Assembly (NCBI GenBank): GCA_017522065.1 | Contig: JAFXAD010000062.1 | Location: 62,001-126,000 of the forward strand | Direction: 5' to 3' | DNA: 64,000 nt | DNA from: Bacteroidales bacterium | GTDB taxonomy: Bacteria > Bacteroidota > Bacteroidia > Bacteroidales > P3 | In this document: piece after piece, positions 46,959 to 64,000 of the stretch | How the letters are laid out: each line of letters begins with the position of its first letter | Numbering within the stretch: position 1 is the first letter of the stretch | Notes under the pieces: generated by a model | Database searches by the model: none | The model's input: only the letters and a program-made list of their open reading frames with translations | What the model was told of the DNA's origin: nothing | Position numbers and translations under genes: made by a program

Positions 46959-48956
46959 ATGAAAAAAATACTACTGTCTGTCATTGCTATGACTTTTGGC
47001 TTTATGACAGTTTCTGCACAAGACAACGTCACGCGCCCGACAAAATACGACGGATGCAACACACTGACCATTTTCGACTCGACAACCGTATATATGGAAG
47101 AGTCGGGTCTCAGCCGCGTCGACTATCATATCCGCAAAGCAATGCTTACCTACAAAGGATGCATTGACAACAGCGTCTACAAGATGGACTACGACCCCCT
47201 GTCGGCCTACGTCGAGATACGTCAGGTACTCGTACACCGTTACTACGCCAACCGCACCGACACCATCGTTGCCCAAGGACGCGGCACAGTCTACGACTAT
47301 GTTGCCCCCGCACGCCTCATCTACTGGGGTGCATCGCAGAAAATGGTCGAGATCGGCCATCTCGACCCGCGCGACGAAATAGAGATATGGGGATTCCGCA
47401 AAGGTTTCACCTACGCGCTTTTGAGCAGAGATGAGAGAACGGAGAATTTTGATGCGGCAGCCAGTTCTCCGCTTCCCGACGACGACAGCCGCTACATACC
47501 CCCCATGCGAGGCCATTTCTACGACATCGTCCCCTTCTGGAGCAACGAGCCCATCACCGACAAGGTGTACTCCGTCAACGTCCTCAAATCGAAAAAACTG
47601 CGGTTCAGTTTCTATAACGACCTGAGTGGCGTTACCATGGACTCGACAGACAAAGGAGACCGCATCGTCTACACCTTCCGCCGTCATGACATCATGCCCC
47701 TCAAGCACGAGCCCTCTGCCCTGGCCGACAACGACATGCAGTGCAAGCTGCTGCTCAGCACAGCCCCCAACTGGGAGTCCAAATCGATGTGGTTCTATGG
47801 TGTCAACGAAGACTACGGCAGTTTCCGCTCCACACCCGAAGTAACCGCTAAGGTGCGCGAACTGCTCGTTGGCGCCAAAAGTGAACTCGACAGCATCAGC
47901 ATACTCACCCACTGGGTGGCTGACAACATCCGCTACTGTGGCATATCTATGGGCGAAGGCGAAGGCTACACCCTCCACAACGCCCAGATGAACTTCACCG
48001 ACCGCTGCGGAGTCTGCAAAGACAAGGCCGGAATGCTCGTCGCCATGCTGCGAGCCGCCGGATTCAAGAGCTATGCCGCAATGACCATGGCTCACGAGCG
48101 CATCGACCGCATCCCCGCCGACCAGTTCAACCACAGCGTATGCGTTGTGCAGCGTCGCAACGGACAATACCAGCTTCTCGACCCGACATGGGTTCCCAAC
48201 GTGCGCGAGCTGTGGAGCAGCGCCGAGCAACAGCAGGGCTACCTGATGGGTCTGCCGCAGGGTGCCGACCTCATGGAGACTCCTGTTTCGCCTGCCGAGA
48301 ACCACTATGTGCGCATCAGCGCCAATACCAAAATCAAGAAAAACGGAACCCTCACCGGCACCATCACCATCACCGCCGAAGGGCAGAGCGACGCCGCAGT
48401 TCGCAGTGTCTTCAGCGCCCGCCAGAGCGAATGGCAGCGCAATCTCGAGCTCGAACTCCTTCGCATCGCTCCCAACGCACAGATAAAGAAGATCACGCAT
48501 ACCGACCCCGACCGCTACCTCGAGCAGCCCGTATGCATCAGCTACACATTCTCCATTCCCGACTACGCCATCGTCGACGGCGACAACATAGTCTTCATAC
48601 CCCTGTCGGCACGCAACTTCTACAGCCGCGCCATGGGTCACCTCCGTTTCGACACCACACTCGCCGTACGCACTCAGCCCTTCGCCGACCGTTGCTCGCG
48701 ACTCGTCGAAATCAACGAGACAGTATCGCTGCCCTTCGCCTGCAGCAAGATGGACTACAATGCCGCCATCGACGGTGTTGTATCGCCTGCCGTCAACTAC
48801 GGATGCGGATTCAGTCTCGATGGCAAAACACTCACCTTCGGCGAAAGCGCAATGTTCAACAAGCGCATATACGATGCCGCCGACTGGATCCCCTTCCGCC
48901 AAGCCGTAATCGGACAAAACACCGTAGCCGTCACACCAGTAGTGCTGCATAAATAA
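46959..48956 (+). CDS. DUF3857 / transglutaminase-like secreted protein, intact catalytic triad
   Basis: 665 residues with a signal peptide (about 1-20). DUF3857 beta-sandwich in the first ~270 residues, then a transglutaminase-like core at about 300-420: Cys in DRCGVCKDKAGMLVAMLRAAG, His in FNHSVCVV, Asp in QLLDPTW. A C-terminal beta-sandwich follows. The triad is complete, so it could be a peptidase or amidase acting in the periplasm; substrate unknown. The next gene encodes a smaller relative. Confidence 0.85.
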   Translation: MKKILLSVIAMTFGFMTVSAQDNVTRPTKYDGCNTLTIFDSTTVYMEESGLSRVDYHIRKAMLTYKGCIDNSVYKMDYDPLSAYVEIRQVLVHRYYANRTDTIVAQGRGTVYDYVAPARLIYWGASQKMVEIGHLDPRDEIEIWGFRKGFTYALLSRDERTENFDAAASSPLPDDDSRYIPPMRGHFYDIVPFWSNEPITDKVYSVNVLKSKKLRFSFYNDLSGVTMDSTDKGDRIVYTFRRHDIMPLKHEPSALADNDMQCKLLLSTAPNWESKSMWFYGVNEDYGSFRSTPEVTAKVRELLVGAKSELDSISILTHWVADNIRYCGISMGEGEGYTLHNAQMNFTDRCGVCKDKAGMLVAMLRAAGFKSYAAMTMAHERIDRIPADQFNHSVCVVQRRNGQYQLLDPTWVPNVRELWSSAEQQQGYLMGLPQGADLMETPVSPAENHYVRISANTKIKKNGTLTGTITITAEGQSDAAVRSVFSARQSEWQRNLELELLRIAPNAQIKKITHTDPDRYLEQPVCISYTFSIPDYAIVDGDNIVFIPLSARNFYSRAMGHLRFDTTLAVRTQPFADRCSRLVEINETVSLPFACSKMDYNAAIDGVVSPAVNYGCGFSLDGKTLTFGESAMFNKRIYDAADWIPFRQAVIGQNTVAVTPVVLHK

Positions 48957-49044: not shown

Positions 49045-50550
49045 ATGAAAAAAATCTTCAAAATATTTATCGCCGTCGTGCTGTTCTCCGTTCTCCATTC
49101 TCCGTTCTCCGCATCCTTCGCCCAGGACGCCGAGTACAACCTCATTCGCCACACCTACAAAATCAACAACGACGGCACGATGGACATCAATTTCCGCAAG
49201 GAAATCAAGCTGCTGCGCAACCGTGCCATAACAGCCTACGCCGACAAGGGCGAGACCTTCATACTCTACAATCCCGCCATCGACCAACTCCGAATCAACG
49301 AGAGCTACACCATCCGCAAAGACGGCAGCCGCGTGCAGACCCCACAGAACGCCTTCATCGACCAGCTGCCGAGCCAGTGCACCGACTGCGGCCGCTACAA
49401 CGGCATCCGCGAACGCGTGGTGGTCCACACCGCCCTTGAATACGACTGCATCATCGTCCTTGACTACACCATCCACCGCAAAACACAGCAACTGCAAGAG
49501 AGTATAGTCCTTGCCACCGACTGCCCCGTCAAGCGGCACGAGATTATTGTCGACCTCCCCTCTACCGCAACCGATAGACTATCCATCTCCTACCCCGTCG
49601 ACAATAAGAAAATCAAATCAATCGATGACAGTCATGCATTCCACCTCGTCGCTACCGACATAGAGCAAACCATCATCGAGAACTATATGCCCGCCAACAT
49701 CTACCCCACCGTAGAAATCAAATACAACCACAACGAAAATTCACAACTTCCCTCCTCACTCTCCCCCCTGCCTGAAGCCGAGAATGTCGTTACCGAGCTT
49801 TTCGACAACGACCCCATGACCTATGCCACCAACATACGCGACTATGTAGTCGACAACATACACACCAACGACATACCCCTCGCCCTGCTTGACTATCATG
49901 TTTCCACACCGCGCGAGACGTTCCTCAGCGGTTGCGGCACACCTGCCGACAAGCTCCACCTCCTCGCCTCAATGATGCGTCAAGCCGGTTTCGAAGTCCA
50001 GGGCATCGAAGGCGACATCGTGAATGTTGCAATCCGAGACAACGGACAGATGCTCACCTATGGTTTTTCAGCAAGCCACAAAAACCGCATCCGCCTTCAA
50101 GGTGCCGCCATCGACGAACAGCGCACCATCAGCATCAATCGCGACCTCGTCTGGAACGGCAACGACCTCGGCGGAGGCTACCACCAGATGGTCATCCCAA
50201 CCGAAAACGGCTCAATCAACATCAACCCCGCAAGGCTTACCTCCGAGCGCAAAGCCCCGCTGCGTGTGCGTAACTGCAACGAGCATTACCACTATAAAAT
50301 CATTACCCCACGCACACCCAAACGCATCCTCGTCCAGCCCGTCGACATCAGCTACACCAAGAAAGGCATAGGCTCCATAAAAATCAGCATACGGCAGCCC
50401 GAGAACGGCCCCATCGAAGTAGTACGCGAACTCAATATCGACGTCAAGGACGGCATCGTCACACCCAAGCAATACAAAGCCTTCCGACAAATGATGCAGG
50501 ACTGGAACACCTACAACACCGTCACCTTCAAAGTCCAGACAAAGAAATAG
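49045..50550 (+). CDS. DUF3857-type secreted protein with a degenerate transglutaminase core
   Basis: 501 residues. The signal peptide (about 1-26) is partly coded by TTCTCCGTTCTCC repeats. DUF3857-like N-terminal region about 27-230, then a shortened core with SGCGTPADKLHLLASMMRQAG: the Cys-helix is kept, but I find no following His and Asp motifs like those of the gene before it. It may be a non-catalytic partner of its neighbour (89-nt gap, same strand). Its 3' end has been copied into the spacer at 56.2 kb. Confidence 0.75.
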   Translation: MKKIFKIFIAVVLFSVLHSPFSASFAQDAEYNLIRHTYKINNDGTMDINFRKEIKLLRNRAITAYADKGETFILYNPAIDQLRINESYTIRKDGSRVQTPQNAFIDQLPSQCTDCGRYNGIRERVVVHTALEYDCIIVLDYTIHRKTQQLQESIVLATDCPVKRHEIIVDLPSTATDRLSISYPVDNKKIKSIDDSHAFHLVATDIEQTIIENYMPANIYPTVEIKYNHNENSQLPSSLSPLPEAENVVTELFDNDPMTYATNIRDYVVDNIHTNDIPLALLDYHVSTPRETFLSGCGTPADKLHLLASMMRQAGFEVQGIEGDIVNVAIRDNGQMLTYGFSASHKNRIRLQGAAIDEQRTISINRDLVWNGNDLGGGYHQMVIPTENGSININPARLTSERKAPLRVRNCNEHYHYKIITPRTPKRILVQPVDISYTKKGIGSIKISIRQPENGPIEVVRELNIDVKDGIVTPKQYKAFRQMMQDWNTYNTVTFKVQTKK

Positions 50551-50574: not shown

Positions 50575-50603
50575 AATGAGGCGGATCACAAATCCGCCTC
50601 ATT
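50575..50603. terminator. Bidirectional hairpin between convergent genes
   Basis: Perfect 12-bp stem AATGAGGCGGAT / ATCCGCCTCATT with a 5-nt loop, sitting between the stop codons of the plus-strand DUF3857 gene and the minus-strand giant gene. U runs are modest on both sides. Confidence 0.7.
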
Positions 50604-53600
50604 TCAATACTCTATGTCGCCCACAAGTACATGGGTATCGCCACCGACCGGACCTATATTGCCGCCACCGTATACATTCTTGCCTATACGGGCGTGTCCT
50701 TGAATGTGCACCGTCGTGTTGCCGTTCACCGTGGCATTGTTGCCTCCGCCAAACACATAATCGCTCACATTGCAGTCGCCCTTTATCCTGACTTCAGTAG
50801 TGCTCTGCGAAGGACTCTCATTGCCACCTCCGAAAACCGACTCGGCCACCGTACCGCCATCTATGGTGATACTGATAGCTCCCGTCACATTGCCTAAGGT
50901 CGACATATCGGTATTGGTGTAGAGAATATTGGCAGCGTCGTTCGAACCCGTAGTGGCACGGTATTGCCATGTGAAAGTCTCTGGCTCGACAGTACCAAAG
51001 TCGCTGAAAAGGCCTGTCTCTTTACTATATACAGACTTCGTAGGCTCTGTGGCGGGATATACCGACAACGTATTGGCGGATGCCTTATAACCACCCCCAT
51101 AAGCACTTTGCATCAAGGTGCAGTTGGTAAGAGTAGATGTCACTGTACCGGCCACCTTGCCCTGGCAGCCGCCACCATAGAAGTCTCCCTTCACAACACA
51201 GTCTTCGAGTAGATTGGTGACATTGCCAGTCTGTGCCAGCGAAAACTGTGCATAGCCTGTATATGAGCGTGCAACACCCGTTCCGTTGCCTCCCGAGTAA
51301 AGAATAAATTCGAACTTATAGCAGCTGCCGATTCCATAAGTAGCATTATTGGTAAGACGTTTATATGTATCGGTAAATGCTATAGGAAATTCCAGATCGC
51401 TGCCAAATCCAACTCCTGACTGGTTGCCCTCGCGATTATATGTAACTGACGTGCCACCATATCCCGCACCATAATATTCTCCAAAGACCGATCCTTTGGC
51501 ATGTGTGGTTACGCTCTTGCCGTCTGACATGTTTCCGAATTCGGGTCCTCCGCAATAGAAATCGACAAGGCTGTTGTTCATAGTGATGTTAATGTTGCCT
51601 GTGATACGTGCTGCCGCCGATGTGCCGCCGCCAAAGAATCTTCCTATCACGGCATGATCTATCTTGGCCGTAACATTGACGCCCGCAGTACTTGGATTCT
51701 CCATATAGGCGCCAAGCCACTTGTGAATCTTTCCGCCACCGCCCCAGAAGCGTATATCGCTACCTGTCGCAGAGGCACCTGCTCTGTAGCCTGTCATATA
51801 GCACTCCTCTATTTCGCCTCCTGTCACTAATATCGGCCTTAGCGTCGTTATATTGGCATCATCGGTGTGCGATCCTGGATAGAACTCCTTGACATAGGCA
51901 TTACCTCCGATTTGGGCATAGCTAAGCTTCGAACAGTTCCCTTTCCTGCAACGCACAATCTGGATAAAGTAACCACTGTTGGCAATCCATCGGTTATTGC
52001 CATGACCGTTGTCGGCACTGGCAAAATTGCCCGAGTTGATCTCACATTCGCTCATGAAGCTGACACAGGTCTCTGTCAGTTCGAACCATCCCTTGGCATG
52101 CCAGATACCTATTGTCGGGTTTGGTGTACTGCCTGTGACGCGCGCGGCCATACCCATACCGATATTCGGAACAAAATCGAAGCGCATGGGTGGAACGTTG
52201 GTACGGTCTGTGCTGTGGTACGAGTACCAGCCGTAGTCGGGTTCCTGGTTGTTGTCGTCGTCTGCACTCATTATGGTCACAGCTTTGCCCGTATTGAAGC
52301 AGTTGTTAATGACTTTCTGATTGTAGTGAAAATTGCCTACAAGCACAATAGCCTGCGTATGTGGATTGGTACTTGTCTCGAGAGCCCCCACCAGCGTTTC
52401 CAGATTGGTGTAGACGGTCCTGCCATGATAGGTTGTCGGCACTGCCCAGCCGAGATCTGTCTGAGCCTGGTAGGTGTCACTGTAGCCGAAATCGCCAAAG
52501 GCATCGCTGAGATAGAAGGCATTGGCGAAATTGGACTCTATTGTGATTGCCGTAACATCATACGGCACGATAAAGTTGCCACCTTGGGCGAAGACGTATG
52601 GGTTGTTTGTGGCGTGATAGATATCCTTCTGCGCATTGGAGCGGTCTGTAAAATTGTAAGGTTCTGCAGCCGGAAGGCTAAATTCCGTAAGTTCCACGGC
52701 TTCCTTTGTGACGGATGTCACCTTCCATCCCGTGCACACCTTGCTGTAATCGCGTGTCCATCCGCTGAATTCGTTGGCAAAAGGCAGAACAACCTTGCCC
52801 CATGTAAAATCGTGACGGAGAGTGTCCATGTCGGTAATAGGCAAGTCCACGTTGTATGTATCGTATGGTGCGCCTGTTCCAATCTTGACAGTAACGTGCA
52901 AATAGCCATTGTCGCCCATTTCCGTAAGCAGTCTACCCGCATAGTCCTCCTCGGTCGAGGGGAGGTTGTCTACTATGTCCTGTGTCACACGGTGGGTATT
53001 CGTTTCCCAGGGTTCGACTATAGGATAGGGTGCCACATCAGGCCTTAAGACCCAATGGCCAATTTCGTCGATTTGTTGCGAAGAAGGAGCCGAGGTGGTT
53101 AGCGAGGTCGTTGTATTGCCATAGAGGAAAAGAGCAGCCATCTCGCGATGCGTGTTTAGGATATGGCGATAGAACGGAAAACGGGTCAAGAAGTCGTCCT
53201 TGTCGATAGCCAGCTGGTCATTGTATACTGTGTAATCAAGATTGGCACGACTGCGCCAGAAATTGTATTCTGTGTAATTCTTGTCGTTCGAGACATGCGA
53301 ACCACCATAGACAGGCGAAATGTTTGTCCCTCCGGTTATGTCGCCGTACATCATGCAGTTCGAAACGCGGGGGCTTCCGCAATACAGCCGTACATCATCC
53401 CATCGCAGCCAGGTAAAATTGCCAGCATTGGATACATTGAATCCCAACGTCACGTCGCCATCGGCGGCAAGCGTGAACGACTGCACTATTCTTCCTCCCC
53501 TTCCGGATGATGTAGTTTGGTCCAGCATCGAGGTGGTAATGCTGGTAGTGTTGCCGTTGATGTAGAACGACAGGCCTGTTGGGTTTGTCGAATTATTGGT

Positions 53601-55976
53601 CCATACCTTATATATTACATCGTATGTTCCTGCCGGCACGTTATGGAAAGTGTATCTGAACGTCTGGTTTCTGATATTGCTGCCATTTCCCCAAACCTCA
53701 TAATCAGGCTCGACAAAAAAGCCATTCTGCACATCGCCTGTTTTCTTCTTTATCTGGTATGTACCGGTATAAGTCCATCCCGTAAGGTCTGATCCGTCGA
53801 GATGGTATGTGTTAGTCTCGACTTTTCCCACTATGCCGGCAGCAAAGTTGCCACCTTCAATTGTTGCATAGTTATAGCAGTTGACCACTCGCGTGTTGCA
53901 AGCGATCAAGCCTGCCAGTCCTCCGACATTGTCCGTACCGGCAATCGACGAGCTTCCGTCGCTCGAAAGCACTCCGGTATTGTAGATTTTGCTATTGCCA
54001 TGTGCCTCGCCGCACACCGCTCCGACATTGTTGCCCGAGGCGATGTGAACATTGTCGATACGCAGATTTTTCACTGTTGCGTCTCTCATAATGCCAAAAA
54101 GCGGCACTCCGAGCCCGCTAATCGTATGGTAGTTGCCGTCGAGAGTTCCTGTAAACAAGGCAATAGAAGACGCCAGCGACGTAGCGTCGATATCAGCAGC
54201 CAAGATGTAAGAGTATGTGGGATTGCTGGCTATATAGGCCAGGTCGCTGACATCTGTCACCATGTAAGGTTCATCAACTGTGGCTCCAGTATTGTTGTTG
54301 TAAGGATTTCTGACCACCGTTACTGCTGATGCCAGTCCGTCCACGTATGTGACAGCACGCACCTCTGTACCGTATGCGGTGTAGATAGGTGTGGCTGTGA
54401 GGTCTGTTGTCATCGGGGTGTCGCCGTCCAAAGTATAGTAGGTGACTGCCGATGCGGCTGAAGTTGTAGCATCTATAGTGGTATTCGGTGTAAAGCCGTC
54501 AAGCGTATGAACAAAAGTAACCATAGGCGCCGTGGGCAACACGGTTACCAATACATTGACACTGACTGTCGGCTCTGCAACAGTCCTCAACTCGATGCTG
54601 TACGTACCGGGTTGGTTGGCAACAATCGAATGTTCTGTGTTGTTGACCACAAGCGATGCGTCTGACGAAATAATCTCATATCGTTCGTCCAACTGCGAGT
54701 ACTCAGGATTGGCGAACGTAGGACTTAGTGTGGTGGTCTCGCCCTCGGTCATTGTTATTGGTGCAATCGTTATAGATGTTGGAGGGGCAAGATATTGATT
54801 GACCATTATTTCCACTGTTTGGGTCTGCATTGAGCCGTCGGGCCATGTGACGGTCAGCGTCAGCGTTGCCGTGCTGCCACCGGCAGCATGGCACGGTGTG
54901 CTGTAGGTCACCGTCGGTGTGGCGGTGGTTTCACCGCTAAGGGTCAGGTATGCTGCTCCAGCTCCGCTCAGCGTCCAACTGTAGGATGTAACTTCGCCGG
55001 CGGTGTAGTTATGTTCCGACGACGGAGGAACAGCTGTTCCGTGGTCGTTGGTGTACGACATCGAGGGATAGAAATTGTGCGTCGTCCAGATGGTGTCGCA
55101 CACACGCACTGTCCAGTCGCCACGGCAGTTGTCGAGAGCTCCTGTTGCCAACGACGTGTATTCCGGCGTGATCTGGTCGCTGTAGGTCCCGATGGTGGCC
55201 TCGGGGCTGATGCTGCTGCCATAGGTGATGGCCCCGCCACTGATGGTCGACAGACCACCAGTCTGCGTGCTAATGTCCACATCGTGATGAATGATGCGTA
55301 CGGGTTCGAAGGTGGCGATGTGCTCCACAGCCTCGTAGCTCGACGTGGTGCTCATGTGCCACTGCGGCTCGCTGCCGCCAAGAGCGTTGTCGTATACCAG
55401 CCAGTAGACTCGCCAGCACTCATCGCCTTCGCTATTGAACTCCGACGGGCACGACACCGTTGTATACTGCTCGCCGTGGGCCAGACCCCAGTCCCAGTTG
55501 TAGAAATAGTAGTAGCTCGTATTGCTTCCAAGCGAGGCCGTAACTGCAGCATCTTCTGCCACTATGGTCAGCGGTGCTCCGGCTCCGTATGCCGGGTTGG
55601 TGGCATCGGAGGCATTAGGTGACGTTGTGGTGGCGAAGGCGGCACTCAGATAATAGCGGGTACTGCCGTCATTTGACATAAAGTAATAGTTGTTGGTATT
55701 CGGCGAATACCACACGCACGAGTCGCTGAAAACCCTCGTGGTGTAGAGTTCATACCCATTGGTGGTCGTGTTTAAGCGGTGCGCCAAATAGTTGTTACCG
55801 CTACTGATGGTATACGCCTTCTGTGCCGTGAGCGAAGAATTGGTCAAAAAAACAAAAACCAACAAGAATACGACGGCAACAAGCCGATATATGAATTTGC
55901 TTATACTATGATTCATGAGAAGATTGTGCTTCTTCAAGGTACGCCCTTCTTTATTAAAAAACGAATTCTGTTTCAT
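50604..55976 (-). CDS. Giant secreted repeat protein, paralogue 1
   Basis: 1790 residues. Signal peptide ends near residue 52 (SSLTAQ); a second in-frame Met at residue 21 may be the real start. Residues ~53-390 are nearly identical to paralogue 2. Then an Ig-like domain (~395-485), a chitobiase-like repeat (~490-560, YYTLDGDTP), GLUG-type segments (~580-730, NVGGLAGLIA, AAGIVGK), and a carbohydrate-binding-module-like insert (~740-880, TFRYTFHNVPAGTYDVIYKV ... WLRWDDVRLYC) absent from paralogue 2. The C-terminal third repeats VFGGGN / VYGGGN turns, suggesting a beta-helix. It ends in that repeat with no recognisable T9SS sorting domain. Probable surface or adhesin-like protein. Confidence 0.75.
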   Translation of the reverse strand: MKQNSFFNKEGRTLKKHNLLMNHSISKFIYRLVAVVFLLVFVFLTNSSLTAQKAYTISSGNNYLAHRLNTTTNGYELYTTRVFSDSCVWYSPNTNNYYFMSNDGSTRYYLSAAFATTTSPNASDATNPAYGAGAPLTIVAEDAAVTASLGSNTSYYYFYNWDWGLAHGEQYTTVSCPSEFNSEGDECWRVYWLVYDNALGGSEPQWHMSTTSSYEAVEHIATFEPVRIIHHDVDISTQTGGLSTISGGAITYGSSISPEATIGTYSDQITPEYTSLATGALDNCRGDWTVRVCDTIWTTHNFYPSMSYTNDHGTAVPPSSEHNYTAGEVTSYSWTLSGAGAAYLTLSGETTATPTVTYSTPCHAAGGSTATLTLTVTWPDGSMQTQTVEIMVNQYLAPPTSITIAPITMTEGETTTLSPTFANPEYSQLDERYEIISSDASLVVNNTEHSIVANQPGTYSIELRTVAEPTVSVNVLVTVLPTAPMVTFVHTLDGFTPNTTIDATTSAASAVTYYTLDGDTPMTTDLTATPIYTAYGTEVRAVTYVDGLASAVTVVRNPYNNNTGATVDEPYMVTDVSDLAYIASNPTYSYILAADIDATSLASSIALFTGTLDGNYHTISGLGVPLFGIMRDATVKNLRIDNVHIASGNNVGAVCGEAHGNSKIYNTGVLSSDGSSSIAGTDNVGGLAGLIACNTRVVNCYNYATIEGGNFAAGIVGKVETNTYHLDGSDLTGWTYTGTYQIKKKTGDVQNGFFVEPDYEVWGNGSNIRNQTFRYTFHNVPAGTYDVIYKVWTNNSTNPTGLSFYINGNTTSITTSMLDQTTSSGRGGRIVQSFTLAADGDVTLGFNVSNAGNFTWLRWDDVRLYCGSPRVSNCMMYGDITGGTNISPVYGGSHVSNDKNYTEYNFWRSRANLDYTVYNDQLAIDKDDFLTRFPFYRHILNTHREMAALFLYGNTTTSLTTSAPSSQQIDEIGHWVLRPDVAPYPIVEPWETNTHRVTQDIVDNLPSTEEDYAGRLLTEMGDNGYLHVTVKIGTGAPYDTYNVDLPITDMDTLRHDFTWGKVVLPFANEFSGWTRDYSKVCTGWKVTSVTKEAVELTEFSLPAAEPYNFTDRSNAQKDIYHATNNPYVFAQGGNFIVPYDVTAITIESNFANAFYLSDAFGDFGYSDTYQAQTDLGWAVPTTYHGRTVYTNLETLVGALETSTNPHTQAIVLVGNFHYNQKVINNCFNTGKAVTIMSADDDNNQEPDYGWYSYHSTDRTNVPPMRFDFVPNIGMGMAARVTGSTPNPTIGIWHAKGWFELTETCVSFMSECEINSGNFASADNGHGNNRWIANSGYFIQIVRCRKGNCSKLSYAQIGGNAYVKEFYPGSHTDDANITTLRPILVTGGEIEECYMTGYRAGASATGSDIRFWGGGGKIHKWLGAYMENPSTAGVNVTAKIDHAVIGRFFGGGTSAAARITGNINITMNNSLVDFYCGGPEFGNMSDGKSVTTHAKGSVFGEYYGAGYGGTSVTYNREGNQSGVGFGSDLEFPIAFTDTYKRLTNNATYGIGSCYKFEFILYSGGNGTGVARSYTGYAQFSLAQTGNVTNLLEDCVVKGDFYGGGCQGKVAGTVTSTLTNCTLMQSAYGGGYKASANTLSVYPATEPTKSVYSKETGLFSDFGTVEPETFTWQYRATTGSNDAANILYTNTDMSTLGNVTGAISITIDGGTVAESVFGGGNESPSQSTTEVRIKGDCNVSDYVFGGGNNATVNGNTTVHIQGHARIGKNVYGGGNIGPVGGDTHVLVGDIEY

Positions 55977-56202
55977 TTCATCTTTTCGTTAAAAAAATCG
56001 TATACTATATCAAAATCTAAAGTCGAACAAAAACAAACTCAAAATGTTACCTCACTCCATAATCCCTATTTCACGTTAAACATTTCATCTACAAATCTAC
56101 AACTTATTCTATTTGATGCCTCTGAGCGTTTTCAGCGTCTCGTAGGCCTCGTTGATTTCGCGGAACTGCGCCTCGGCGTTCTTCTTCACCTCGTCACCCA
56201 TC
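54805..56202. repeat. 1.4-kb segmental duplication, copy A
   Basis: Nearly identical to 60223-61619 with scattered substitutions and a 1-nt length difference. It covers the first ~390 codons of giant paralogue 1, its upstream region and the last 31 codons of a TerB-DnaJ gene. Similarity falls sharply at 54805 inside the gene and stops at 56202 with a CATC microhomology. Confidence 0.92.
56109..56202 (-). pseudogene. 3' fragment of the TerB-DnaJ co-chaperone gene
   Basis: Minus strand, reads [20 protein letters not shown] and on to the stop TLKTLRGIK*, the same C-terminus as the intact gene at 61526-62359. It is cut at 56202 where a different gene fragment begins. It has no start and should not be expressed as a chaperone. 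Confidence 0.9.
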
Positions 56203-56301
56203 GTCACACCCAAGCAATACAAAGCCTTCCGACAAATGATGCAGGACTGGAACACCTACAAGACCGTAACCATCAAAAGCGCGCTTGGCAAGACCAATTA
56301 G
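56199..56301 (+). pseudogene. 3' fragment of the DUF3857 gene
   Basis: Plus strand. 56199-56261 is a perfect 63-bp match to 50454-50516 (frame IVTPKQYKAFRQMMQDWNTY), then diverges to KTVTIKSALGKTN and a TAG at 56299-56301, so the source may be a variant of the gene at 49045-50550. Its end overlaps the stop of giant paralogue 2. Confidence 0.9.
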
Positions 56302-59300
56302 TCGCCCACAGTGACATTGGTGCTGCCAAAGACTTCGCCGGCATTACCGCCTCCATAGACGTTGCCCTGCACTTTGCACTGTTCGCGAAGCGTTACGTTG
56401 GTCGTATTGGCACTTCCTGACGCACCCACCACAGCGGCATTGCCGCCACCGAACACATGACTGTCCACTAACGAGTTGCCTTTCACGAGGACATTAGTGC
56501 TGTTGCTGTTGTTGGTGCAGACGGCCGACTCGTTACCACCACCATACACGCTGCCGTAGACGTGCGACAATGTGTGTCCTCCTACAGAAAGCGACCCGTC
56601 AATGGTAAGATAAGTGTTGTATTTCACACTGCCGAGTCCGGTCAGAGTCTCAGAAGTGTAGATGGTCTTGTTTGTTGCATTCAGCTCGGCACTTGTGGAG
56701 CCCGAATTGCTCCACACAAAAGTCTCCGCATCGGTAGGCGGCAAATCGGGCAGCGAATAGAAACCCGAGCTGGTGTTGAAGCTTGGCCACTGCGGGTCTT
56801 GTGTGGCACGGCTTGCAGGATAGACCGTCACCTCGGGTATTGCTGCCGAGAAGCCACCACCGAAGACACTGCCGAAAACGGTGCAGTCGGTAAGCGTGCT
56901 GGTAGCATTGCCGTCGACCTCGCCGAGGTTGCCGCCGCCATAGTAGTCGTCGAGGACAACGCAACGGCTAAGTGTGGAAGTGACATTCTTGGTCTGCGCC
57001 TTGTCGAAAGAGGCGTAATGCACGTAGAAACGGCCCACATTGGCCACCGTCCAGGCACCGGACCTAGCGAAAAGCTCAAACTCATAGCTGACAGCAACGC
57101 CTCTGTTGTTGACATAGTTGCCTCGCTGGTAGTTGGCATAGAAACCTGACCAGTTGTACGTCTCACTTTGATATTCGTTGTTGAACCTGTGCCTGTAGAG
57201 GCTTGTGCCGCCGTTGCCGGCACCGAAGTATTTGCGGAACACCGTGCCCGTGGCGTTGGTAGTGACCGTCTTGCCCGCCTGCATATTGCCGAACTTCGGT
57301 CCGCCACAATATATCTGAGTGACAAGGCTGTTGTTGATCGTTACCGAAATATCGCCAAGAACCGGTTTGGCTTTGTTGATGCCGCCACCATACATATAGT
57401 CGACAACAGAATGGTTAAGGGACACGATGACATTGCCGTTCACCTGTTCCTGCCCTGCCCCGGCCAGCTCGCCGAAGTTGCCGCCATTGGCATAGAGAAT
57501 TACATTGTCGGCAAATACGCCAGCATCGGGTCGGAATGTGCCTGAAAGGTAGAACTTGTCGAAGTCGCCGCCCATGACCGAGACGGGGCAATGGTTGGTA
57601 CCTACGTTCTTGTCGGCATGAACGCCGTTTTGGAACTCCTTGAACCAAACATTGCCGCCGAAAATCATATAAGGGGTGTGAGTGGTTCTGGTACCAGGAT
57701 CGTCGTTGAAAGTCACGAATTGGTCAATCATGCCGCCGTTGAATATCACGGGGCTGTTGTTGTTTTTGTTTTTAGCCTCATATTCGAATTGGTTGAAGCG
57801 GATGAGACCCGTTTCGGTTATCTCGAACCAGCCTTTGGGTTTGAGGATACCAGGAGTTGCGACATTGCGAGCCGTCGACGGTTTGGCAGCGTTGCCGATG
57901 CCGGGGACGCAGAGGAAATCCCACCGTACGGCATCGATGTATATACGGTCTTTGCTCTGGAAGAAGAAGCAGTAGTCGGGTTCGCAGTCCACATCAAGGT
58001 CAACACTCATTATGGTGAAGCTGCGAGTGTTGTTGTTCATATCATTATCAGTTCTGAAATGCACATTGCCGACAAGGACTATGGCGTTGTCGTACACTGT
58101 CGTTGAGGTGCTACTTGCCACCTGATTGCGTGCATCGGCGTAGGATGTTCTTACCGTCTGGTCATTGAAGGTCGTAGGGCATGTTCCGGCAACGGTGAAT
58201 TCTTTCAAAGCGGCATTCACGTTGCCCGACACCGACGAGGTCCTGTCGTAGTTTGGATCGCTCAGATAGTAGGCATTGCCCCAGTAGGCTTCGATGTCAA
58301 TGCTTGTCACATCCTGGGGCACGTAGTAGTAGCCGCCCTGTGCGAAGACGCGCCCGCTGATGCTGTAGACATCCTTTCCGAGGTCGGTGGTGTCGGCAAA
58401 ATTGTAGCGCGTGTCGCCGGTGGTTGTGAACGTGGTTGAGGGGTTGCTGTTGCCGTTGACGGCGGTTATCTTCCATCCGGTACACACCTTGGCGCCATAG
58501 TTGGTGGCTGTTCCGAAGAGGTCGTTGTAATAGGGCAGCTGCACCTTGCGGAAACAGTAGTCGTAGTGTGCCGTGTCCATGTCGGTGATATAGAGCGTCA
58601 GCGTCTTGGTAGTATTGAGGGCTCCGTTGGTGGTACCGCCCTTGGCGTTGACGGTAAGGGTTCCCATCTGCGCACCCACGTAGCGTGTAGCCTCGCCAGC
58701 GGCACGGGCGGCTGGGTCGTTGTAGTCGATGGTCGGCTGATATGATACAGCGGGGGCATCGGTAGTGAGTGTGGATGTGTTGAACATATAGCGATTGACG
58801 GGCGACGTGTAGCGTCCCCATGGTTTCAGGATTGGATAGGGCGCTATGGTGGTGTCGAGCACCCACTTGGCGATAAGTGCACTGTTGGCGTCGCTCACTG
58901 CTCCGCCGATGTAGAAGCCTGTCAGTTTTCGCTGGCTGTTGAGGATGTGGCGGTAGAACTCGTAGCGGTTCAACAGCCAGGGTTCCACCTCGAGGGCACA
59001 GTTGTAGTCAGTGATGGTGCTCACAATCCTGTCGGTAAGGAAATAATTGTAGTTGTTGATTCCAGTATTTGTTGCACTTGTGTAGACATTAGATATTGCC
59101 GAACCTCCATAAATGGGGTAAGAGTTGGTGGCATTGATGGTGCCGTAGAACATGCAGTTGAGCACCAGTGTCCGCAGCGTGCCCGACTGCGATGCATAGT
59201 GGTTGTAGCCCACAATGCCGCCGACATAATTGCCTGTGAGGTCGGCAAAACTATAGCAATTGAGCAATCGTGCGGTATGACTGTTCTGCGTTCCGAGCCG

Positions 59301-61394
59301 TCCGACGATGCTGCCTGTATAGTAGCCATTGGTTGTCGACCCCGCTATAGTACCGCTAAGCACCCCGCAGTTATAGATACGAGCGTCCTCGCTGGCTGTG
59401 GCGGCAATGGCACCACAGTGGTTGTTGCCGCTGACGGCGATGTTGACATCCTTGAGGGTCACGTTGCGCACCGTGCCTGTCGTGGTGGCAAAGAGCGGAT
59501 GGGTAAGATTGCTGATGACGTGGAAATCGCCATCGAATGTGCCGCTGAAATTCGTGATGGAGGTTGTGAACGACGATGCATCGAAATCGCCTACGACCTT
59601 GTAGTATTTGGCACGATTGGCATTGCTGCTATTGATATAGTCGAGGTCGGCGACCGACATTACCGTATAGGGAGAGCCTGCTGACGAGCCGTCGCCATCG
59701 GTATGGGGATTGACGACAACAGTCTCGAGCGATGAAATCTGTGTACCCCCTACGGTAACCACCGTCACGGCATGTATCTCAGTACCATTAGCCACATTGA
59801 ACGGTGCAGAATACTGCGTGCCTGCATTCGTTGCTGCGCTGCCGTCGGTCGTATAGTATTGTACCGGCGACGCTGCCGATGTGGTGGCCGTAATTATAGC
59901 GTTAACCAAGTTGCTGCCCGCAGGGTGCGCAAAGGTTACTGTCGGAGCCTTGGGTCGGACTGTCACGGCGACTGCAACGGCCAGCTCCGGAGCCGACACA
60001 GGTGTTATTGTGAGCGTTGTCGTGCCTACTGCCAAAGGCTCTACCGACCGTCCTGCGACACTGACAATACCGGGTACCGAAGCCACTATATCGACTTCGG
60101 TATCGACATTTTCTGTCGGTGTGAAAACGAACGTCAGGTCGAGTGGTTCGCCATCCTCGACAAGTTCGATATCAGTAGGATTGACACTGAACGACGTTGG
60201 CGGATAGAGGTACTGGTCGACAATTATTTCCACTGTTTGGGTCTGCATTGAGCCGTCGGGCCATGTGACGGTCAGCGTCAGCGTTGCCGTGCTGCCACCG
60301 GCAGCATGGCACGGTGTGCTGTAGGTCACCGTCGGTGTGGCGGTGGTTTCGCCACTAAGGGTCAGGTATGCTGTTCCAGCCCCACTCAGCGTCCAGCTGT
60401 AGGATGTAACTTCGCTGGCGGTGTAGTTATGTTCCGACGACGGAGGAACAGCTGTTCCGTGGTCGTTGGCGTACGACATCGAGGGATAGAAATTGTGCGT
60501 CGTCCAGATGGTGTCGCAAACACGCACTGTCCAGTCGCCACGGCAGTTGTCGAGAGTTCCTGTTGCCAACGACGTGTATTCCGGCGTGATCTGGTCGCTG
60601 TAGGTCCCAATGGTGGCCTCGGGGTTGATGCTGCTGCCATAGGTGATGGCCCCGCCACTGATGGCCGACAGACCACCAGTCTGCGTGCTAATGTCCACAT
60701 CGTGATGAATGATGCGTACGGGTTCGAATGTGGCGATGTGCTCCACAGCCTCGTAGCTCGACGTGGTGCTCATGTGCCACTGCGGCTCGCTGTCGCCAAG
60801 GGCATTGTCGTATACTAACCAGTAGACTCGCCAGCACTCATCGCCTTCGCTGTTGAACTCCAACGGGCACGACGCCGTTGTATACTGCTCGCCGTGTGCC
60901 AAACCCCAGTCCCAGTTGTAGAAATAGTAGTTGCCCGTAGAGGTTCCAAGCAAACTCTCAACCGTAGCATCCACTGCCACTACAGTCAGCGGTGCGCCGG
61001 CTCCGTATAACGGGTTGGTGGCATCGGAGGCATTAGGTGACGTTGTGGCGGTGAAGTCGGCACTCAGATAATAGCGGGTACTGCCGTCAATTGACATAAA
61101 GTAATAGTTGTTGGTATTCGGCGAATACCACACGCACGAGTCGCTGAACACCCTCGTGGTGTAGAGCTCATACCCCGAGGTGGTCGTATTGTAACGGTGA
61201 GCCAAATAGTTGTTACCGCTACTGATGGTATACGCCTTCTGTGCCGTGAGCGAAGAATTGGTCAAAAGATTAAACGCCAAAAATAATACGACGGCAACAA
61301 GCTGATATATGAATTTGCTTATGCCATATTTCATGTGAAGTTTGTGCTTATTCAAGGTACGCCTTTCTTTATTAAAAAACGAATTATGTTTCAT
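56298..61394 (-). CDS. Giant secreted repeat protein, paralogue 2
   Basis: 1698 residues from the Met at 61394, aligned with the start of paralogue 1. Signal peptide ends at SSLTAQ. Shared N-terminal region (~50-390), Ig-like domain, chitobiase-like repeat (YYTTDGSAA), GLUG-type segments (YVGGIVGYN), then the YGGG / FGGGN repeat region to the end (NVYGGGNAGEVFGSTNVTVGD is split over its last residues). It lacks the carbohydrate-binding-module-like insert of paralogue 1. The two genes are tandem and in the same direction; C-terminal two thirds are only moderately similar. Probably exposed on the cell surface. Confidence 0.75.
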   Translation of the reverse strand: MKHNSFFNKERRTLNKHKLHMKYGISKFIYQLVAVVLFLAFNLLTNSSLTAQKAYTISSGNNYLAHRYNTTTSGYELYTTRVFSDSCVWYSPNTNNYYFMSIDGSTRYYLSADFTATTSPNASDATNPLYGAGAPLTVVAVDATVESLLGTSTGNYYFYNWDWGLAHGEQYTTASCPLEFNSEGDECWRVYWLVYDNALGDSEPQWHMSTTSSYEAVEHIATFEPVRIIHHDVDISTQTGGLSAISGGAITYGSSINPEATIGTYSDQITPEYTSLATGTLDNCRGDWTVRVCDTIWTTHNFYPSMSYANDHGTAVPPSSEHNYTASEVTSYSWTLSGAGTAYLTLSGETTATPTVTYSTPCHAAGGSTATLTLTVTWPDGSMQTQTVEIIVDQYLYPPTSFSVNPTDIELVEDGEPLDLTFVFTPTENVDTEVDIVASVPGIVSVAGRSVEPLAVGTTTLTITPVSAPELAVAVAVTVRPKAPTVTFAHPAGSNLVNAIITATTSAASPVQYYTTDGSAATNAGTQYSAPFNVANGTEIHAVTVVTVGGTQISSLETVVVNPHTDGDGSSAGSPYTVMSVADLDYINSSNANRAKYYKVVGDFDASSFTTSITNFSGTFDGDFHVISNLTHPLFATTTGTVRNVTLKDVNIAVSGNNHCGAIAATASEDARIYNCGVLSGTIAGSTTNGYYTGSIVGRLGTQNSHTARLLNCYSFADLTGNYVGGIVGYNHYASQSGTLRTLVLNCMFYGTINATNSYPIYGGSAISNVYTSATNTGINNYNYFLTDRIVSTITDYNCALEVEPWLLNRYEFYRHILNSQRKLTGFYIGGAVSDANSALIAKWVLDTTIAPYPILKPWGRYTSPVNRYMFNTSTLTTDAPAVSYQPTIDYNDPAARAAGEATRYVGAQMGTLTVNAKGGTTNGALNTTKTLTLYITDMDTAHYDYCFRKVQLPYYNDLFGTATNYGAKVCTGWKITAVNGNSNPSTTFTTTGDTRYNFADTTDLGKDVYSISGRVFAQGGYYYVPQDVTSIDIEAYWGNAYYLSDPNYDRTSSVSGNVNAALKEFTVAGTCPTTFNDQTVRTSYADARNQVASSTSTTVYDNAIVLVGNVHFRTDNDMNNNTRSFTIMSVDLDVDCEPDYCFFFQSKDRIYIDAVRWDFLCVPGIGNAAKPSTARNVATPGILKPKGWFEITETGLIRFNQFEYEAKNKNNNSPVIFNGGMIDQFVTFNDDPGTRTTHTPYMIFGGNVWFKEFQNGVHADKNVGTNHCPVSVMGGDFDKFYLSGTFRPDAGVFADNVILYANGGNFGELAGAGQEQVNGNVIVSLNHSVVDYMYGGGINKAKPVLGDISVTINNSLVTQIYCGGPKFGNMQAGKTVTTNATGTVFRKYFGAGNGGTSLYRHRFNNEYQSETYNWSGFYANYQRGNYVNNRGVAVSYEFELFARSGAWTVANVGRFYVHYASFDKAQTKNVTSTLSRCVVLDDYYGGGNLGEVDGNATSTLTDCTVFGSVFGGGFSAAIPEVTVYPASRATQDPQWPSFNTSSGFYSLPDLPPTDAETFVWSNSGSTSAELNATNKTIYTSETLTGLGSVKYNTYLTIDGSLSVGGHTLSHVYGSVYGGGNESAVCTNNSNSTNVLVKGNSLVDSHVFGGGNAAVVGASGSANTTNVTLREQCKVQGNVYGGGNAGEVFGSTNVTVGD

Positions 61395-61619
61395 TTCATC
61401 CTTTCGTTTAAACATCATATACTGTAGCAAAATCTAAAGTCGAACAAGAACAAACTCAAAATGTTACCTCACTCCATAATTCCAATTTCACGTTAAACAT
61501 TTCATCTACAAATCTACAACTTATTCTATTTGATGCCTCTGAGCGTTTTCAGCGTCTCGTAAGCCTCGTTGATTTCGCGGAACTGCGCCTCGGCGTTCTT
61601 CTTCACCTCATCGCCCATC
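60223..61619. repeat. 1.4-kb segmental duplication, copy B
   Basis: Counterpart of 54805-56202. It covers the 5' third of paralogue 2, the 131-nt spacer with its presumed promoter, and the true 3' end of the TerB-DnaJ gene. Here sequence continues without a break into that gene, so this is the ancestral arrangement at the right-hand end. Confidence 0.92.
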
Positions 61620-62359
61620 CCTTCCACCTTGTCGGGATGATACTTCATTGCCATACGCCTATAGGCTTTCTTTATCTCTTCGTCGCTGGCACTGCTGTCA
61701 ATACCCAACACCTTGTACGGGTCCTTCTTATAGCCCGCGGACGATGATGACGCAGAACTATTTCCCTCTCTGCCGCGTCCGCCGCCAAAGCCTCCGAAGC
61801 CCCCAGACACGTGCCGGGCCATGATCGACAGAAAATCACGGGCATTGATACCAAGACGGTTGCTTATTGTACGCAGCAACGACTGCTCCTGAAAAGTAAT
61901 CTCGGCGTCCGAACTGGCTATACTGAAAAGAAAATCCAGCATGTGATAGCGCGTGGTGTAATCAGTATTCTGCTTGATTTGCACACATATATCGATAAGC
62001 GGTATCTCTTCCTGCTGCAGGTCGCGCAATTTCAGAAGCAACTCCCGCGCTCTCTCCTCTCCATAGTTGCTCACAAGGAATCGTTTCACCAAATCGAGTT
62101 CGCTCTTCTTAACCACATTGTCGGCCTTCATAACAGCGGCTATCAACACAAGCAACGCTGCCGACAGGTCGTCGGACGAGCCCGTGTTGCTGTATCGTCC
62201 ACCTCGGTGCGACTCAAACTTACCGCCGCCGCCCGAACCGATAAAGCCATTGCTGTCTCTATTCTCAAAACTTCTTCCTATAAGGAAACCTATTATAGCG
62301 CCAATCGGACCCATCATGGTCCAACCGAGCCCGCCAAGTATCCATTTTCCTAATCCCAT
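61526..62359 (-). CDS. TerB and DnaJ domain co-chaperone (DjlA-like)
   Basis: 277 residues. A hydrophobic, Gly-rich N-terminus ([20 protein letters not shown]) may anchor it to the membrane. The TerB-like helical domain spans about 65-185 ([32 protein letters not shown]). A Gly/Ser-rich linker leads to a C-terminal J domain with the HPD motif in [10 protein letters not shown] (about 246-248), needed to stimulate DnaK. Complete and likely functional; its last 31 codons are duplicated at 56109-56202. Confidence 0.88.
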
Positions 62360-62390
62360 GCGTCTATTTTTTTTCGTTATTTCGTGAATG

Positions 62391-62572
62391 TAATTCGAGT
62401 AATTCGCCGTTAAACACTTTATTAGAGTAATTAGTTTGTAATCAATTCCTGCGTAGCTTCGAGTAATTCGAGTAATTCGAGTAATTCGCCGTTAAAAAAT
62501 TTATTAGAGTAATTAGTTTGTAATCATTTCCTGCGTAGCTTCGAGTAATTCGAGTAATTCGCCGTTTAAAAA
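62391..62572. repeat. Compound tandem repeat, 82-nt period with inner CGAGTAATT units
   Basis: The block from CGCCGTTAAA through TTTATTAGAGTAATTAGTTTG to CTGCGTAGCTT appears twice (first at 62405, next at 62487), then a third start at 62560. The 9-nt unit CGAGTAATT is repeated a variable number of times (two or three) between blocks. It fills the whole spacer between two genes. Confidence 0.9.
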
Positions 62573-62573
62573 A

Positions 62574-64000
62574 TTAGAGGTCTTCAACATTCGATTCTTC
62601 TTCGGTTTCTATTTCGTAGTCAGGCATTTCTCCTCTCATCTCAGAATTAATGACATATCCCGACTGCGTAGCCCCCATTGCAGCTGGCGCAATAAGCAGA
62701 TGCAACGTGTCGATCCCCTGCTCCGAGAAGAAGCGTCGCACATTCCTGTCACGGTACTCGCCGACAATAGCGAGGCTCGATTCGGCCGCGTCGCGAGGAT
62801 AGAGCCGCTCGGCAAGGCGCTGTATCTCCTTGTCGGTGGGTCGTTTGGAAGCAATTCCCTTACGGCGTACAAACGAGACGAAACCTGTGTCCTTAGCAGA
62901 GATCGAGACAACCTCGTCGTACAGGAATGCCTGCGGAAGGATTTTTGTATTGGCTTTGTCGGGATGCTTTGATATGTAGTATTCCTCCTTCAAAAGGTAG
63001 AGACTCTGACGCTTGGCCACTTCGGCCACATTGACCTGCGGCTCAAGGGTCACCACGATATTGGTATCGTACTCAAGTACTTCTGCAATCTTGTTGAGGA
63101 CGTTGTACTGTTCGGAATTGAAGTGAACCTGCAGGGGGTCGTAGGCTATGAACTCCAGATTGCCGCTTTGTCCCATGACTTTTGCAACGGCTCGGAAGGG
63201 CGACGTGGCGACCTTCACGACCAGGTTGCCCAAGGTCTTCCACACTATCTTCATGTAGGAAAATTCGGGCGAGTCGACATTGCCCTTGACCGGAACATCG
63301 ACATCAATCTTACCGTCCTTGTCTTTAAGCACATAGAGCGCTGCCTTGAGCGGTATGTTGACGCGGGCATCGACGTCCTTGCGTTTCTCGCCGATCTCCG
63401 GATTGTAGAGGTCAATATTGTTACGTCCCTCCAACTGACTGAAGACTATGTTGTTCTCGCTTGTGAACGAGAATGTGCCGTCGGTGAACGGATATCCGAG
63501 ATAAGCAACCGAATAGGGAGAAAGGTCTTTCAGCTGGATATTCTTAATATTCAGCGTAAGATGCTGGTTCTGCTTCCACTGGTCGATATTTCCGCGCCAG
63601 CTTATGAATGCCGTGCCGCCATGGGGCAGCTGCGCATGGAGACGTGCATTGTTGTCGCCAGTTGAGTTTATGTTCTCTGCCTTAATATTGATTTTCTTGA
63701 CCGGGAACGAGAATTCATCGGGCAGACTGTAGTCATTGTATACAAACTGGGCGTCTCTGATGACGAAACTGCCGACCTTAAGCTGCAAGGGTTTCGATGG
63801 AGCCGTGGTTTGCTCGTTCTCCGCTTTCACGTTTTCGTCTTCGTTTTCGTTTTTCGCTTTCTGTTCTCCTTTCTCCACCGCAAAAAGCCTGGAGAAATTG
63901 TTGCCGTCAGTATACATGTCGAAATGCGACACCAAGCCATCGACCTCAACCGACTTGACATCATACAGCTTGCTATCAAGGTTAATGCGGTTAACATTAA
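62574..64000 (-). CDS. AsmA-like / DUF748 protein, C-terminal part (partial)
   Basis: The last ~474 residues are visible; the frame stays open to the window edge, so the start is outside. The part shows beta-strand-rich AsmA-type repeats and the DUF748 segment DVPVKGNVDSPEFSYMKIVW followed by KTLGNLVVKVATSPF (about 220-250 residues before the end). Such proteins span the periplasm and are linked to lipid transport and outer-membrane integrity. A Glu/Asn/Lys-rich linker (63815-63870) is coded by GAAAACGAAGACG repeats seen also in spacers. Confidence 0.82.
   Translation of the reverse strand, partial: NVNRINLDSKLYDVKSVEVDGLVSHFDMYTDGNNFSRLFAVEKGEQKAKNENEDENVKAENEQTTAPSKPLQLKVGSFVIRDAQFVYNDYSLPDEFSFPVKKINIKAENINSTGDNNARLHAQLPHGGTAFISWRGNIDQWKQNQHLTLNIKNIQLKDLSPYSVAYLGYPFTDGTFSFTSENNIVFSQLEGRNNIDLYNPEIGEKRKDVDARVNIPLKAALYVLKDKDGKIDVDVPVKGNVDSPEFSYMKIVWKTLGNLVVKVATSPFRAVAKVMGQSGNLEFIAYDPLQVHFNSEQYNVLNKIAEVLEYDTNIVVTLEPQVNVAEVAKRQSLYLLKEEYYISKHPDKANTKILPQAFLYDEVVSISAKDTGFVSFVRRKGIASKRPTDKEIQRLAERLYPRDAAESSLAIVGEYRDRNVRRFFSEQGIDTLHLLIAPAAMGATQSGYVINSEMRGEMPDYEIETEEESNVEDL

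Follow-up and report, generated by a model that had tools for sequence, protein, structure and literature searches.

A chimeric scar between two giant genes of a Bacteroidales bacterium and its probable origin by recombination between two diverged alleles

If two giant genes lie side by side and the ends of both genes that flank them are fused between the copies, how was the second giant gene gained? This question is raised by a 64,000-nucleotide stretch of DNA (the window), which lies inside contig C62 (194,109 bp) of a draft Bacteroidales genome (G000) of 2,624,720 bases in 62 contigs, 90.8% complete. From left to right, DUF3857a and DUF3857b on the plus strand are followed by giant gene 1, the scar, giant gene 2 and a TerB-DnaJ gene, with the giant genes and TerB-DnaJ all on the minus strand. 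The features are as follows.

46959–48956, plus strand: DUF3857a, a DUF3857/transglutaminase-like gene, the outer left neighbour (Pfam PF12969, PF01841)
49045–50550, plus strand: DUF3857b, a DUF3857/DUF3858 gene, the intact left parent of the scar (Pfam PF12969, PF12970)
50575–50603, no strand: hairpin in the interval from DUF3857b to giant gene 1, its 12-bp stem perfectly paired (fold −19 kcal/mol, z −6.5)
50604–55976, minus strand: giant gene 1, 1790 amino acids, with a type-1 body from about residue 868
54790–56202, minus strand: shared block, copy 1, comprising the N-terminal ~400 codons, the upstream region and the DnaJ 3′ end (93.4% identical to 60208–61619)
56109–56202, minus strand: left half of the scar, a dead TerB-DnaJ 3′ end (91 of 94 bases equal to 61526–61619)
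56199–56202, no strand: CATC, common to both parents at the joint
56199–56301, plus strand: right half of the scar, a dead DUF3857b 3′ end (63 of 63 bases equal to 50454–50516) with its own end, ..YKTVTIKSALGKTN stop
56298–61430, minus strand: giant gene 2, 1710 amino acids, with body residues 757–1611 95% identical to the giant gene of the related species G138
60208–61619, minus strand: shared block, copy 2, the partner of 54790–56202
61526–62359, minus strand: TerB-DnaJ gene, the intact right parent of the scar (Pfam PF05099, PF00226)

DUF3857a is the same neighbour in G138 and other relatives. DUF3857b also led to four named relatives, all Bacteroidales bins, of which two come from sheep and goat gut according to their titles. 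The scar copy lacks the hairpin at 50575–50603. The terminator scan did not call this hairpin, neither the promoter nor the terminator scan gave anything exceeding shuffled sequence, and a search for its origin in the relatives with type-1 bodies yielded no convincing match. Upstream of TerB-DnaJ, at 62385–62576, there are two tandem 82-bp repeats based on a TTCGAGTAA motif.

The chimeric scar at 56109–56301 is confirmed. An earlier note, made from the letters alone, had assigned 56109–56202 to the 3′ end of TerB-DnaJ and 56199–56261 to a perfect 63-bp copy of the 3′ end of the DUF3857 gene, and the alignments bear out both assignments. As that note also described, the parents meet at CATC: these four bases are seen in both, and past the joint neither parent's own sequence goes on. 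Since the matches to the two parents have E values of 2.3e-92 and 6.0e-31, and a query of 55993–56301 finds only these two partners in the genome apart from itself, a chance origin is excluded. The probability that a random joint of TerB-DnaJ and DUF3857b shares at least 4 bases is 0.019. The DUF3857b fragment stays in frame to a stop codon at 56299–56301, which overlaps the stop codon of giant gene 2 at 56298–56300.

Both halves of the scar carry signs of a second allele. The end of the DUF3857b fragment was said to differ from the present gene, and the divergence does set in after 50516. The dead end shows zero differences over its first 63 bp; beyond 56261, 13 of 16 bases match to 56277, and 18 of the 24 positions from there to 56301 then differ from DUF3857b. 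The scar's terminal SALGKTN aligns with the end of the G138 gene, NSVGRAN, and not with the resident KVQTKK. In the left half there are three differences from the resident DnaJ, every one of them synonymous and in third position (P = 0.019 that random changes in this piece are all synonymous). Two of these are placed only 6 and 9 bp from the joint, which makes it probable that the left half came from a living DnaJ allele other than the resident one. A comparison with 13 relatives gave an ambiguous polarity for the three differences. The suggestion that an allelic copy took part in the joint thus finds support, as does its reading as an illegitimate joint formed at a microhomology, with the two flanking genes of the unit contributing their ends.

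What is duplicated on the two sides of the scar? The giant-gene copies share 1,413 bp at 93.4% identity (54790–56202 and 60208–61619), since the repeat on the DnaJ side continues through the whole upstream region into the first ~400 codons of the giant gene, and on the opposite side a further 79 bp at 96%. Between these, the bodies are only 36–41% identical at the protein level with two aligners, and each body has nearer relatives in other genomes than in the other copy. The two bodies represent different subfamilies, called here type 1 and type 2. The type-1 body of giant gene 1 has relatives at 61–71% in seven fetched loci of the genus, and these loci (9 to 15 kb each) contain no match of at least 60 residues to DUF3857b or TerB-DnaJ. 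The type-2 body of giant gene 2 shares 95% identity with the giant gene of G138 across 855 residues.

As to what the giant genes encode, both proteins begin with a signal peptide, judged by eye, and are therefore probably secreted or located at the surface. Pfam gives a partial Peptidase_M26_N match above the cut-off in both, and Fn3_assoc and CHB_HEX_C_1 in giant protein 2. NCBIfam matches to the giant proteins all fall far under the cut-off, and a profile of the giant body has no match among solved structures at E up to 1. Genes of this family occur in 58 of the 120 genus genomes searched, several in tandem, and a limited literature search found nothing relevant on giant tandem genes in Bacteroidales.

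The earlier note had proposed that the joint was left by tandem duplication of the segment between the two parent genes. The part that places the joint between the ends of the flanking genes stands; the duplication of one segment does not, as the bodies are 36–41% identical. Simple tandem duplication gives copies that are alike over the whole unit, and here the likeness is 93% over 1.4 kb and 96% over 79 bp only.

That note had also expected DNA lacking the duplication to show a DUF3857 gene, one giant gene and the TerB-DnaJ gene in that order, and this arrangement is found in G138, across two contigs. One contig carries DUF3857a and DUF3857b beside the C-terminal end of a type-2 giant gene; the other carries the remainder of the giant gene and then, directly, TerB-DnaJ. 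The two contigs overlap exactly by 55 bp at their ends, and in G138, too, DUF3857b and the giant gene have overlapping stop codons. Because G138 shows the same order (DUF3857a, DUF3857b, one giant gene, TerB-DnaJ), the gene order is older than the joint, just as had been argued from the letters.

Comparing the dead gene ends in the scar with the divergence of the copies also gives a relative date for the joint, and other tandem arrays could be tested in this way. In the shared coding part of the giant genes, dS is 0.134 and dN 0.058 over 399 codons. A simulation covered 93 bases at the DnaJ end and 60 at the DUF3857b end; each copy received half of the observed dS, on the assumption that the dS of the shared block holds in the flanks and that living genes take synonymous changes only. 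When the copies diverged in place, at most three DnaJ changes without an amino-acid change were obtained in 0.6% of runs, no DUF3857 change in 0.6%, and the two patterns together in 0 of 20,000, figures that derive from short dead fragments and small counts of changes. When the alleles diverged while alive, at most three DnaJ changes and no DUF3857 change were obtained in 9.6% of runs, so that even this model gives the observed class only occasionally. Simple tandem duplication requires that the dead fragments drift in step with the divergence of the copies, and they did not. As the dead ends are nearly unchanged against a dS of 0.134, and the pattern never arose in place, the most economical view is that the joint probably formed recently, between two alleles that had diverged beforehand.

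Divergence in place after one old tandem duplication of a single segment is thus very improbable. It would explain the topology of the joint, the gene order and the single giant gene of G138, but it has to place bodies of 36–41% identity beside flanks of 93–96%, each body being nearer to genes of other genomes, and it fails to produce the fragment pattern. We rejected plain tandem duplication with in-place divergence on body identity, on the contrast with the flanks and on the simulation.

We therefore favour, with a probability of roughly 0.6, a single recombination event in which two diverged alleles of one locus took part and whose illegitimate side left the scar. Allele A would have consisted of DUF3857b, a giant gene with a type-1 body and TerB-DnaJ, and allele B of DUF3857b, a giant gene with a type-2 body and TerB-DnaJ. 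DNA of one allele would have entered a cell bearing the other. One of its ends would have paired by homology, on the right within or past TerB-DnaJ or on the left within or past DUF3857b, and the other would have been joined at CATC, linking the DnaJ 3′ end of allele A to the DUF3857b 3′ end of allele B. With one homologous and one illegitimate end, the incoming allele would come to lie next to the resident one, so that two complete giant genes remain with two dead gene ends between them.

The allelic origin in this proposal rests on the divergence pattern. We infer that alleles A and B were once apart, that a single event joined them, that homology acted at the far end and that the DNA entered from another cell. 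A source other than the resident molecule is indicated indirectly, by the dS of 0.134, the different bodies and the purely synonymous DnaJ changes. Homology at the far end has left no visible trace. No loss of DNA is visible, as DUF3857b and TerB-DnaJ are whole and the order is that of G138, although a loss inside any part of DnaJ that was replaced would leave no sign.

Could the joint instead have been made during sequencing or assembly? Two strain haplotypes of a metagenome might have been set in tandem by the assembler, or a library molecule might have been chimeric. The layout (left flank, allele A, a bit of right flank, a bit of left flank, allele B, right flank) has the look of a falsely duplicated haplotype, and the genome is a draft of 62 contigs, taken as a metagenome bin. 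Against this, the 80 contig ends (from 41 of the 62 contigs) share 14 exact terminal matches, counted at 15 bp or more, of which seven are 141 bp long, one is 140 bp and none is longer. That half of them are exactly 141 bp suggests that the assembler used a de Bruijn graph with k = 141. Within the window, no 141-mer is repeated on either strand, and the longest run common to the giant copies is 128 bp. A de Bruijn assembler should not bridge a 4-bp overlap unless reads span it, and where a true continuation competes, the contig should end. An artefact is therefore unlikely. The exact 63-bp length of the DUF3857 match and the 55-bp overlap of the two G138 contigs raised the possibility of a 63-bp k-mer anchor; this was rejected, as the contig ends indicate k = 141 instead.

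If the scar reflects recombination between two alleles, by what mechanism did it form? Homology-facilitated illegitimate recombination (HFIR), which integrates incoming DNA through homologous recombination at one end and an illegitimate joint at the other, fits best. It has been reported in Streptococcus pneumoniae, Acinetobacter baylyi, Pseudomonas stutzeri and Escherichia coli (PMC3240628). Our locus resembles the events described there in having a single joint with a short microhomology, apparent DNA of another molecule and homology available on the opposite side as an anchor. According to that source, most published joints in transformable species have 3–10 bp of microhomology, a range that includes the 4 bp of CATC, although CATC alone proves nothing, because three of the four joints of its E. 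coli clones were without homology (PMC3240628). The locus seems to differ from these events in two ways: the HFIR insertion is described as generally paired with a deletion of about equal size in the recipient (PMC3240628), whereas here a second allele would have been added with both genes kept, and the homologous end is not directly visible. On our analysis, HFIR would explain why there is a joint, why the divergence pattern is as observed and why both genes are complete.

A possible but doubtful alternative is that a plain tandem duplication through the CATC joint came first, and that the left copy was later replaced by another strain's allele through homologous recombination, which would have imported the type-1 body, the new DUF3857b end and the diverged upstream region. 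The scar end YKTVTI.. resembles several relatives and the resident has YNTVTFKVQTKK, which would suit a later replacement of the resident end, but the argument is weak, as DUF3857b ends vary among relatives. Exchange of bodies at this locus is indicated in any case by the type-2 body (see below). Replacement of the left copy, however, requires two events, and the synonymous differences of the 94-bp DnaJ fragment call for an import that stops within its final 6 bp.

The comparison with G138 bears on how the giant genes vary. Between G000 and G138, the type-2 body (residues 757–1611) has a dS of 0.16 and a dN of 0.02, the middle part of giant gene 2 a dS of 0.31 and its N-terminal part a dS of 1.45; in the flanks, dS is 0.70 for DUF3857a and 1.29 for DUF3857b, and TerB-DnaJ is saturated. 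Since a dS of 0.16 stands against at least 0.7 in the flanks, the type-2 body seems to have passed between the two lineages long after they split, and the N-terminal part seems not to have done so. Nucleotide identity to G138 drops from ~95% to 64% between 59700 and 60300, around the position (60208) where the two copies in G000 start agreeing. The giant gene thus looks like a constant start joined to exchangeable bodies. The apparently exchanged body of giant gene 2 corresponds to 56301 to about 59700 of the window when compared with L104 and L105, the G138 loci. Elsewhere in the window, 44393–45792 matches L105 over ~1.4 kb at 92–98.5% and at 70–74% directly after, and is perhaps another recombined tract.

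Is the gap between DUF3857b and TerB-DnaJ a site where genes are gained more generally? We compared 13 versions of it from 12 genomes in which both genes lie on one contig. In five of the 13, 27–213 bp separate the homologous ends and there is no ORF of at least 100 amino acids. The other eight hold 1.1–14.8 kb with one to eight such ORFs each, 30 in total, and the 17 of these that were scanned include ECF sigma factors, secreted proteins with a type IX sorting domain, an Na/Pi cotransporter and a TM2 protein. Since the versions differ in content, we take the gap to be a variable-gene site and the convergent pair to be old. Genome G069 has two versions of the site with different content (L158 on contig C30 and L245 on contig C9), which may represent two strains or a duplication.

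To look for other scars, we searched 120 genus genomes with the scar DNA, the DnaJ C terminus and the DUF3857b C terminus as queries. Outside G000, each of the matches listed for the scar DNA covers one side of the joint only. G142 carries a scar of DnaJ only: two copies of 76 bp from the TerB-DnaJ 3′ end, 98.7% identical (L160, 2548–2623 and 3334–3409), flank a gene for 219 amino acids. This gene has no match in the other genomes of the 120 at an E value of 1e-4 and none in Pfam at 0.01. The DnaJ break of G142 lies 14 bp from that in G000. This looks like an independent case of the same type of gene addition, with DnaJ as the anchor. Scars of the DnaJ 3′ end are thus present in at least two of the 120 genomes. 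When 12 other giant-array loci were compared with themselves at 72% identity or more, they showed repeats of genes and spacers and no recognisable scar, although unannotated neighbours could hide one. A 107-bp repeat outside the pair in L141 is a palindromic repeat.

The scar in G142, and the different genes that relatives carry at the site, would also be expected if a dedicated mobile element or site-specific system inserted genes at the TerB-DnaJ 3′ end and left a copy of that end behind. We give this explanation hardly any credence: Pfam detected no recombinase in the 17 of 30 cargo ORFs scanned or in the G142 gene, the two DnaJ breaks are 14 bp apart rather than at one position, and the joint in G000 duplicates the DUF3857b end as well. 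A wider extension of the recombination between alleles is tentative, and we would not lean on it: the gap may be a gene-acquisition site of the genus, fed partly by illegitimate joins at the DnaJ 3′ end, which here took up a giant gene with a constant start and exchangeable bodies, so that cells stack alleles rather than swap them. If so, the repertoire of bodies would grow by one recombination step.

Related behaviour is known from other systems. Effector modules in the type VI secretion system (T6SS) clusters of Vibrio cholerae are displaced, as are Rhs 3′ regions, and an HFIR-like mechanism has been proposed (PMC5361080). Our locus shares with these a constant part with exchangeable parts, and there older versions are pushed aside by incoming ones. 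What is left there, however, is an orphan immunity gene or 3′ region (PMC5361080), whereas here both giant genes are complete with their N termini and upstream region. Pfam and NCBIfam find no toxin or immunity family in either giant protein, and no ORF of at least 80 amino acids lies wholly between the two genes; by these searches the locus shows no toxin tip or immunity gene of the kind in an Rhs/CDI-type polymorphic toxin locus. Tandem duplications made by transformation in S. pneumoniae are likewise set off by incoming DNA, but those described have repeats (incomplete IS861 copies) at the joint and span about 100–900 kb (PMC3784515), as against about 5.4 kb duplicated and 4 bp at the joint here.

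If our reading of the scar is correct, it would be a readable fossil of how a second giant protein was gained, by adding another strain's allele rather than by copying the cell's own gene. HFIR has been shown experimentally in a few species (PMC3240628), and natural scars of this sort would show how often whole alleles are added. In G099, two TerB-DnaJ genes lie in tandem (L246, 545–1360 and 1623–2294); they are 56% and 40% identical to that of the window and carry a 201-bp repeat at 85% identity at their 3′ ends.
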